Positions 20,171 through 25,617 of a stretch of 34,363 nt of DNA are shown here, in pieces. The notes beneath the pieces were generated by a model. That model had not been told where the DNA came from. It worked only from the letters and a program-made list of their open reading frames with translations, and did no database searches. Positions within the stretch are counted from its first letter, which is position 1. Every line of letters starts with the position of its first letter. The stretch covers positions 1-34,363 of the IMG/VR virus record IMGVR_UViG_3300008267_000707. One strand, 5' to 3'. The stretch is from a virus. Made by a program: the position numbers and the translations under genes.

Positions 20171-20199
20171 TTGACACCTTAAACCATCTGCGATATAGT
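20171..20199 (+). promoter_or_regulatory. Sigma-70 promoter producing a leaderless mRNA
   Basis: TTGACA (20171-20176), a 17-base spacer and TATAGT (20194-20199). The ATG at 20206 is six bases past the -10 box, exactly where transcription should begin, so the mRNA should have no 5' leader. Confidence 0.85.
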
Positions 20200-20205
20200 A
20201 TAAGC

Positions 20206-20832
20206 ATGAAGATTGAAGAACGCCTCGCCGCTCTCTCCTCTTTGCCCCTTAAGGGTTGGGAGATTAATTTTTACAAGTCTTTCAAGGATGCAACCTCTCT
20301 CACAGAGAAGCAGTTGGCTACTCTTGAAAAGATTGAAAAGCGTTTTGCTGCTGGTAAGCAGAAGGAGCGCGCAGATTGGATTGCTTCGTGGGATAGTGAT
20401 AAGCGTAACCGTTTTGTGTTTGCGTGCAAGTATCTTCGCTCACATACTGTCCCAAGAAAGTATCGTGTTAAGTATATGGCTATTACAAGTTATCTCCATG
20501 ACCCTGTAGCCTATATTCCCGATGAAAAGTCATATCGTACTATTGTGGAGAATTCCCATGTTGTCAAGGCTTATAATGCGTATTGTGCTGCTGCCAAGTA
20601 TTCTGTTGGTGATATGGTTTATGTGAATAAGTCACAGTATGCTACAAAGAAGGGTAAGCCTTCCGATAAGGAATTTCATTGGACAGGCATTATCACAGAG
20701 GTTAGAGAGAGTGATGTTGTTTCTCTTCATACCCGTGATTATGTTGTAGAGCCTATCACGCCTGTTTTGTACGAGACTGCTCCTCACATTGTTAAGGAGT
20801 ATTGTATGCGCCGCTTTGTTGCAGGAGGCTAA
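20206..20832 (+). CDS. Helical protein with C-terminal SH3-like domain (208 aa)
   Basis: N-terminal about 130 residues are basic and helical (SLTEKQLATLEKIEKRFAAGKQK, then RFVFACKYLRSHT). The last third is a member of the GDLV family: YSVGDMVYVNKSQYATKKG, then FHWTGIITEVRESDVVSL and YVVEPITPVLYET. This shows the small barrel fused to a larger domain. Start chosen as ATGAAG at the predicted +1 of a strong promoter; there is no Shine-Dalgarno. The stop overlaps the first base of a structured RNA. Confidence 0.82.
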   Translation: MKIEERLAALSSLPLKGWEINFYKSFKDATSLTEKQLATLEKIEKRFAAGKQKERADWIASWDSDKRNRFVFACKYLRSHTVPRKYRVKYMAITSYLHDPVAYIPDEKSYRTIVENSHVVKAYNAYCAAAKYSVGDMVYVNKSQYATKKGKPSDKEFHWTGIITEVRESDVVSLHTRDYVVEPITPVLYETAPHIVKEYCMRRFVAGG

Positions 20833-21065
20833 ATTTAAATAAGACTCGCTATGGATTTATTTCCTTGTTGTTATAATTATATCGTATCACGGGGCTGATA
20901 CACTAATATTTATGGTTATCCCACGGGTCTGTTCTTTTCCCGTGGCTCTCTCAATATAGATTCAGTTTTGACTATATTGATGATAGATTAAGAACTAGCG
21001 ATTAGACGGCGAAAACGGTCAAAAGCCCCACCAATTTAAATCTGTAGCGAGTTTTATTTAAGTTT
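20831..21065 (+). ncRNA. Unclassified structured RNA, about 235 nt, 29-bp closing stem and possible pseudoknot
   Basis: The ends, 20831-20859 and 21037-21065, pair without interruption for 29 bp, with four G-U pairs. Inside: hairpin 20884-20901 (GTATC/GATAC), whose loop GGGGCT (20891-20896) can pair with AGCCCC (21024-21029), forming a pseudoknot; hairpin 20921-20945 (CCACGGG/CCCGTGG); and hairpin 20951-20980 (TCAATATAG/CTATATTGA). No substantial ORF is in it. The next gene begins 7 bases after the 3' end, with no Shine-Dalgarno. It could be a 5'-UTR regulator or a free ncRNA. No known RNA family recognised. Confidence 0.7.
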
Positions 21066-21071
21066 AGTCTC

Positions 21072-21239
21072 ATGCACAAAATCTTTGATGTAAAGCCCTG
21101 TCCCAACAAAAGTTATTACCATGTGCAAGCCATATGGGTTGCTCACGGTACTAGTCCAACTTGGGCTACATTGCATAAATGTGTTATACCACAAGAATGG
21201 ATGGATTATGCAGACGGAAAACGAGACAGACCCATTTGA
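21072..21239 (+). CDS. Small hypothetical protein (55 aa)
   Basis: Starts MHKIFDVKPCPNKSYYHVQ directly after the structured RNA and ends GKRDRPI. Rich in aromatic and His residues (AIWVAHGTSPTWATLHKC), with a YADG turn. No Shine-Dalgarno is visible, so expression may depend on the RNA structure or coupling. The next gene overlaps its last 32 bases in another frame. Function unknown. Confidence 0.65.
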   Translation: MHKIFDVKPCPNKSYYHVQAIWVAHGTSPTWATLHKCVIPQEWMDYADGKRDRPI

Positions 21240-22944: not shown

Positions 22945-22978
22945 CTTAAAAAGAGAACAAAAAAGTTTTCTAAACCCC

Positions 22979-23007
22979 TTGACGGGGGAGATAAGGCGAG
23001 ATAAGAT
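22979..23007 (+). promoter_or_regulatory. Sigma-70 promoter in tRNA cluster (2)
   Basis: TTGACG (22979-22984), a 17-base spacer and TAAGAT (23002-23007). No complete tRNA follows before the next promoter; the 80 bases after it contain only a small hairpin (23014-23033). Confidence 0.75.
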
Positions 23008-23088
23008 ATAAGGGTGAGGGCGAGAAACCTCACGACTCCTTGAAAACGCAATAAGAAATGTGAACGAAAAGAAAGTTTAAGAAACCTC

Positions 23089-23117
23089 TTGACGGGAGAC
23101 TTGAGAGAGGTTAAGAT
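23089..23117 (+). promoter_or_regulatory. Sigma-70 promoter in tRNA cluster (3)
   Basis: TTGACG (23089-23094), a 17-base spacer and TAAGAT (23112-23117), upstream of tRNA-Arg. Similar in sequence and context to promoter 2, suggesting a duplicated promoter unit. Confidence 0.78.
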
Positions 23118-23137
23118 AATAGGGTAAGAAGAAAGCA

Positions 23138-23156
23138 GCGAGGTTCAAGCCCTCGC
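23138..23156 (+). pseudogene. tRNA T-arm relic
   Basis: GCGAGG-TTCAAGC-CCTCGC forms a 6-bp stem with a 7-nt T-loop, the shape of a tRNA T-arm. No acceptor, D-arm or anticodon arm surrounds it. Together with the spare promoters it looks like a leftover of a deleted tRNA gene. Confidence 0.5.
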
Positions 23157-23163
23157 GATGAAT

Positions 23164-25014: not shown

Positions 25015-25617
25015 ATGAAAAGCGATTTCTCCATCAAGTCCATTTCTAAAAAGCAAGCAACCGACATTCTCAAGGAGTATCACTACCTTTCTTCTATCTC
25101 GCGTGGATTTAAGAGCGGGCACAACTACGGACTTTTTAAGAACGACGTTCTTTGCGGCGTCTGTATTTTTACAGGTCTACCTGCACCCGAAATTGCAAAG
25201 GGTTGCTTTGGCCTTGAACGCGCCAATCAAGATGGTCTTTTTGAACTCTCGCGCCTGTGCCTCTCTCCCGATGTGCAGAGCGAAGAACATAACCTTGCTG
25301 GCTGGTTTTCCGCAAGAGCAATCAAGCAGTTGTGTAAGGATACCAACGTGCGTGCTATCCTTTCCTACGCTGACAACGACTTTCATAGTGGCGTTGTGTA
25401 TGCTGCAACGAATTGGAAGTATTATGGTCTGACTGATATCAAGAAAGACTTTTGGTTTAAGCAGGAAGATGGAACCTTTATCAAGCACAATCGCGGCAAG
25501 GTGAAGGGAGCAGAAGGAGAATGGCGAGAGCGTAGCCGCAAGCATCGTTTCTTGAAGGTGTTTGACCGTTCTCTCAATGTTCTGTGGAACGAGCAGAAGT
25601 GGGGTAACAATGTTTGA
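25015..25617 (+). CDS. Mom-like DNA-modification protein (GNAT fold)
   Basis: Resembles phage Mu Mom, which converts adenine in DNA to N6-methylcarbamoyl adenine and protects phage DNA from restriction. Matching blocks: EYHYLSS (21-27), FELSRLCLSPD (76-86), GWFSARAIKQL (96-106), LSYADNDFHSG (116-126) and YAATNWKYYGLT (129-140). The last two correspond to Mom's SYAD...GHVG and YQATNW. Length 200 aa is close to Mom (about 240). Start is ATGAAA at the predicted +1 of a strong promoter with no Shine-Dalgarno. It may protect phage DNA against its own neighbouring endonuclease as well as host enzymes; that is inference. Confidence 0.85.
   Translation: MKSDFSIKSISKKQATDILKEYHYLSSISRGFKSGHNYGLFKNDVLCGVCIFTGLPAPEIAKGCFGLERANQDGLFELSRLCLSPDVQSEEHNLAGWFSARAIKQLCKDTNVRAILSYADNDFHSGVVYAATNWKYYGLTDIKKDFWFKQEDGTFIKHNRGKVKGAEGEWRERSRKHRFLKVFDRSLNVLWNEQKWGNNV

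Follow-up and report, generated by a model that had tools for sequence, protein, structure and literature searches.

An RNA structure that spans 235–247 nt, closed by a 35-bp stem and tied together by two pseudoknots, lies at a gene boundary in an uncultured bacterial virus and is almost certainly conserved, as judged from compensatory changes between two independent sequences. It is a new structured RNA family with a narrow distribution and absent from Rfam, adding to the known RNAs an undescribed family whose pseudoknots are backed by covariation.

Genomic context of the element

The window analysed here is the 34,363-base IMG/VR record IMGVR_UViG_3300008267_000707, carrying a DnaE-like polymerase, a GroEL-like gene, a thymidine kinase (TK), a tmRNA and 14 tRNAs. 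The phage has no close named relative, its polymerase being at most ~32% identical to phage records among the matches listed, and polymerases 64–100% identical to it are present in many uncultured contigs. The element is preceded by a gene of 208 aa (20206–20832, plus strand), without a Pfam or PHROG family, and followed by an open reading frame (ORF) of 55 aa (21072–21239, plus strand). As seen by sequence comparison, the 55-aa ORF looks like a translated gene, because all three differences from its counterpart in contig 3300046779_000926 (L002) are synonymous. The location between a stop and a start codon, as given in the earlier note, is right for the ATG at 21072, which directly follows the stem, but the upstream gene ends, with its stop codon at 20830–20832, inside the full stem. 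Nor is the element just upstream of TK, as had been stated, since ~650 nt with several small ORFs separate it from this gene.

Regarding the 208-aa gene itself, a near-consensus promoter (TTGACA-17-TATAGT, 11/12) is located at 20171–20199, ending 6 nt 5' of the ATG, and the Shine-Dalgarno (SD) sequence of the gene is poor (−0.7 kcal/mol). With such an adjacent promoter, its transcript is possibly leaderless.

Secondary structure

The closing stem had been described as an uninterrupted helix of 29 bp with four G-U pairs, formed by 20831–20859 and 21037–21065, and it was recovered as such; it also runs six pairs further (GAGGCT/AGTCTC), to 20825 and 21071. The full stem, P1, is formed by a 5' arm at 20825–20859 and a 3' arm at 21037–21071 on the plus strand, with 35 bp and five G-U pairs. 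When the window was shuffled 40 times under a first-order Markov model, the longest comparable helix had 15–23 bp, and the fold of the whole element is well below that of shuffled sequences (MFE z = −6.4). The plus strand folds better than the minus strand (MFE −84.3 vs −67.1 kcal/mol), because all five mismatches at the DNA level are G-U on the plus strand. The earlier argument that G-U pairs point to pairing kept at the RNA level is weak alone; by our own estimate, the chance of all five being G-U and not A-C is ~3% among transitions.

Inside the stem, the three hairpins previously claimed were all found, at 20884–20901, 20921–20945 and 20951–20980 of the same strand. Hairpin 1 has 6 bp (GTATCA/TGATAC), and its loop strand GGGGC(T) at 20891–20896 pairs with AGCCCC at 21024–21029, thus forming pseudoknot 1, which had also been predicted and is present, its sixth pair being in competition with hairpin 1. 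Hairpin 2 has 7 bp (CCACGGG/CCCGTGG), with a conserved CTCTC following it. Its loop takes part in a second pseudoknot that had been overlooked, where GTTCTT at 20931–20936 pairs with AAGAAC at 20990–20995. Meanwhile, hairpin 3, with 9 bp (TCAATATAG/CTATATTGA), is a variable arm that is not conserved in the diverged homologue described below (L008), where a larger branched arm takes its place.

Besides the helices, some stretches of the interior are preserved in sequence. The single-stranded block CCTTGTTGT (20863–20871, plus strand) is invariant in L008, and the best conserved block, AGACGGCGAAAACGGTC (21004–21020, plus strand), is identical at 15 of its 17 positions, with a possible 3-bp hairpin GAC/GTC. 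Over the whole element, conservation is highest in CCTTGTTGT, CTCTC and AGACGGCGARAACRGTC. A tRNA-like 3' end (GCCCCACCA) was also considered and rejected, being absent from L008.

Homologues and covariation

Two further copies of the element were found. The first, in L002, is nearly identical, with one substitution in 247 nt compared to 25 in 627 nt of the preceding gene. The second is a diverged homologue from another uncultured phage, contig 3300020183_000225 (L008:4330-4617), detected by nhmmer with E = 5.7e-5 and by a covariance model, built from the window and L002 only, with 60 bits and E = 1e-10. Here, too, the gene immediately before the element is homologous to that of 208 aa (35% identity, E = 1e-33), and TK lies downstream. 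The closing stem of this homologue has 28 bp and again contains the stop codon of the preceding gene, and the fold has a z of −6.2. The window and L008 share 59% identity in the aligned core columns.

When helices of at least five pairs at the same columns in both sequences were listed, with two or more pairs required to differ on both sides, six covarying helices were observed, compared to a mean of 0.21 in column shuffles and never more than two in 300 trials. All the real structural elements are among the top-ranked helices, and the sixth is a spurious alternative using one arm of the closing stem. Double compensatory changes are thus seen in five structural elements, namely, the closing stem, hairpins 1 and 2 (two changes each) and pseudoknots 1 and 2 (also two each). 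In pseudoknot 1, GGGGCT/AGCCCC is replaced by AAGGCT/AGCCTT in L008, and in pseudoknot 2 (20932–20936 with 20990–20994, paired in both phages), TTCTT/AAGAA is replaced by TCCTG/TAGGA. Alignment gaps were set by hand within the closing stem and the hairpin-1 loop, while the columns of pseudoknot 2 are those of automatic alignments. Covariation among homologues, which the earlier note had named as a check, is therefore positive in an independent, diverged sequence, and these compensatory changes between the window and L008 support the RNA-level conservation of structure that it had claimed.

The element had been said to match no recognised RNA, in agreement with the search of Rfam 15, where it has no match at the gathering threshold and nothing meaningful below it. 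The same search gave no match over the L008 element, and the known families, including GOLLD, ROOL, tmRNA and the group I intron, do not reach their gathering thresholds over the element. DNA similarity in phage and plasmid collections was none or a chance match. No members beyond L002 and L008 were recovered by covariance search of 50 whole records and ~175 loci, and scans of IMG/VR with a pattern for the conserved block and with a profile of the upstream protein returned these contigs and none other. Among 84,980 genomes, the conserved-block pattern had a sole match, in a Clostridiales MAG, which was rejected as having no surrounding similarity and being about what chance would give.

A possible split ribosome-binding site

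Just 5' of the stem is the sequence AGGAGG (20823–20828, plus strand), not noticed in the earlier note, which is the strongest SD-like sequence at the locus. Its anti-SD duplex of −10.3 kcal/mol ranks among the strongest 0.5% of 20-nt windows and beats that of every start codon examined in the window. Two nucleotides separate AGGAGG from the inner 29-bp stem, and its last four bases form pairs once the stem is extended to 35 bp. On the other side, the start codon of the 55-aa ORF has no SD sequence of its own, as had been observed, the upstream anti-SD energy being only −0.9 kcal/mol. The arrangement of SD, stem and ATG is repeated in L008, which makes only two independent cases: the ORF after the element has no SD (+0.4 kcal/mol), while ACAGGGGTG, just 5' of the stem, reaches −6.6 kcal/mol and the top 2.9%. 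Both phages consequently combine a far SD with none at the normal distance, and in both a stable structure, the 35-bp or the 28-bp stem, would restore a spacing within the range of ~5–11 nt. In the window, the gap between SD and AUG is 243 nt unfolded and about 8 nt with the stem folded; in L008, the effective spacing is 7–9 nt.

Two related phages, L005 and L007, do not have the element at this place; their homologous gene carries near its end an SD-like sequence, which serves a next ATG overlapping the stop codon of that gene. In L006, the overlap of ATG and stop codon is present without an SD at the corresponding place. A start codon without SD is not exceptional, as 15 of the 50 starts examined in the window have no plain SD and that of L006 also lacks one.

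From the geometry in both phages and the SD layout of L005 and L007, the element looks placed within a ribosome-binding site, and its stem may bridge the SD and the next AUG. This proposal, drawn from a geometry noticed post hoc, is a tentative one, which we hold at somewhat less than even confidence. The formation of the closing stem would bring the SD at the end of the upstream gene to ~8 nt from the next AUG, so that ribosomes finishing the upstream gene, or binding there, could start the next ORF across the RNA. Translation of that ORF would then be switched as the domain folds or unfolds in response to a protein, to a ligand or to the state of infection. If true, initiation would occur across a folded domain of 240 nt, roughly ten times the span known from T4 genes 25 and 38, a prediction that is directly testable.

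Several observations speak against such a bridge, besides the starts without SD mentioned above and the limitation to two independent sequences. In the window, the outer six base pairs of the stem take up four bases of the SD and would need to open, and the downstream genes differ, being the 55-aa ORF in the window and a membrane peptide in L008. In addition, a 35-bp duplex is likely a substrate of RNase III, whose cleavage would part the SD from the AUG, and a bridge alone would need no pseudoknots. As the bridge leaves both pseudoknots and the invariant blocks unexplained, the interior probably has its own task, whether as a switch of the bridge, as a trans-acting RNA released by RNase III or as a leader acting by another route.

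The second of these tasks leads to a stand-alone noncoding RNA, in which RNase III or a similar nuclease would cut the stem and release a pseudoknotted RNA of ~180–240 nt, which would act in trans, either by targeting a protein of the host or phage or by serving as a decoy. We regard it as a serious possibility, albeit one that we lean against. The conservation of the interior, with its two pseudoknots and invariant unpaired blocks, is what such an RNA would show, and the long duplex enclosing the whole unit resembles the precursor stems of stable RNAs. The tmRNA and the 14 tRNAs within 3.5 kb downstream would also mark this as a region of stable RNAs. However, a scan of both ends of the element revealed nothing resembling a promoter or terminator, and the flanking genes on both sides share one direction.

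It is unlikely that the element is instead a cis-acting leader regulating the downstream genes otherwise than by a bridge, whether it hides the start region, shields the mRNA from decay or acts as a translational operator bound by a phage protein. The pairing of the SD within the full stem, which extends to the base preceding the ATG, and the occupation of the stop-to-start space in both phages would fit this role, but the AUG just outside the stem is odd for simple hiding, and the genes downstream are not the same in the window and L008. Finally, a DNA element, such as a mobile element with terminal inverted repeats, a DNA hairpin or a replication site, is very improbable: despite the long inverted repeat at the ends and the slightly different placement of the element and the type B RNA (see below) relative to their neighbours, the mismatches are all G-U on one strand, the hairpins and both pseudoknots covary as RNA, there is one match per record with no second copy in the window, and no target duplication or transposase was noticed. 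A T4 late promoter-like sequence in the L008 stem, TATAAATA, was judged an A/T-rich coincidence.

Comparison with known phage RNAs

As reviewed for T4 genes 38 and 25, an RNA structure shortens the distance between SD and AUG from 22 to 5 nt and from 27 to 11 nt, respectively (PMC3014915). The proposed bridge is similar in that a too-distant SD would be brought to working distance by the intervening structure; however, the span here would be 243 nt, shortened to ~8, and the element is a conserved pseudoknotted domain compared to the small hairpin of T4. The bypass element of T4 gene 60 also makes ribosomes pass over structured phage mRNA, skipping 50 nt within one ORF (PMC3014915), whereas the present element has a stop codon, a new start codon and an SD. 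GOLLD and ROOL are, like the element, structured RNAs carried by phages near tRNA islands, with functions that are unknown (PMC12286853), but they are several times larger, many GOLLD RNAs exceeding 800 nt, and their Rfam models do not match it.

A second RNA type in related phages

Another structured RNA of ~220 nt, here called type B, occurs directly before TK in L005 (5765–5990), L006 (5752–5981) and L007 (5775–5990). It has a closing stem of ~15–21 bp and a covarying long-range helix UAU-CUAC/GUAGAUA, no match in Rfam, and a model of it recognises only these three loci among 50 records. Type B resembles the element in its long closing stem, in a long-range helix that joins the hairpin-1 loop to a 3' strand and in its place between a homologue of the 208-aa gene, on the upstream side, and TK; on the other hand, it follows a small membrane-peptide gene, and TK has its own SD there. 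Neither covariance model recognises the other above background, in both directions, and type B is, on sequence grounds, an analogue at a neighbouring position, not an established homologue. That it occurs close to this position in related phages suggests repeated use of such structured RNAs by the lineage. A broader interpretation would be a class of phage RNA that is new, in which a pseudoknotted domain within a ribosome-binding site responds to a protein or ligand and allows initiation across ~240 nt only when folded (a fold-to-initiate switch), with type B as a structural analogue of unrelated sequence nearby in sister phages; this remains speculative and we consider it quite improbable.

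A strict pairing of the element with the 208-aa gene was rejected, as relatives of this gene in other phages adjoin TK on its upstream side without either RNA type detected (L129:4225-4983, L130:4210-5001 and L141:4355-4987). Two other inverted repeats were set aside: that of 28 bp at L022:4698-4938 (the same in L023) surrounds a small ORF of an unrelated phage and is a different thing, and that of L068 and L069 lies within apparently protein-coding sequence and is not the same thing.

Other features were observed at these loci. A group I intron (Rfam RF00028, 67.8 bits) is located at L008:10852-11053, inside the tRNA cluster, and was not seen in the window. In the window, the gap between tRNA-Ser and tRNA-Arg (22945–23163) folds better than shuffles (z = −4.1) and ends with a T-arm-like GCGAGGTTCAAGCCCTCGC; it may be a tRNA-like or other structured RNA that has escaped recognition. 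Further downstream, positions 25015–25617 encode a member of the Mom family (Pfam PF25680, E = 1.7e-23), named after a protein that modifies DNA in phage Mu.
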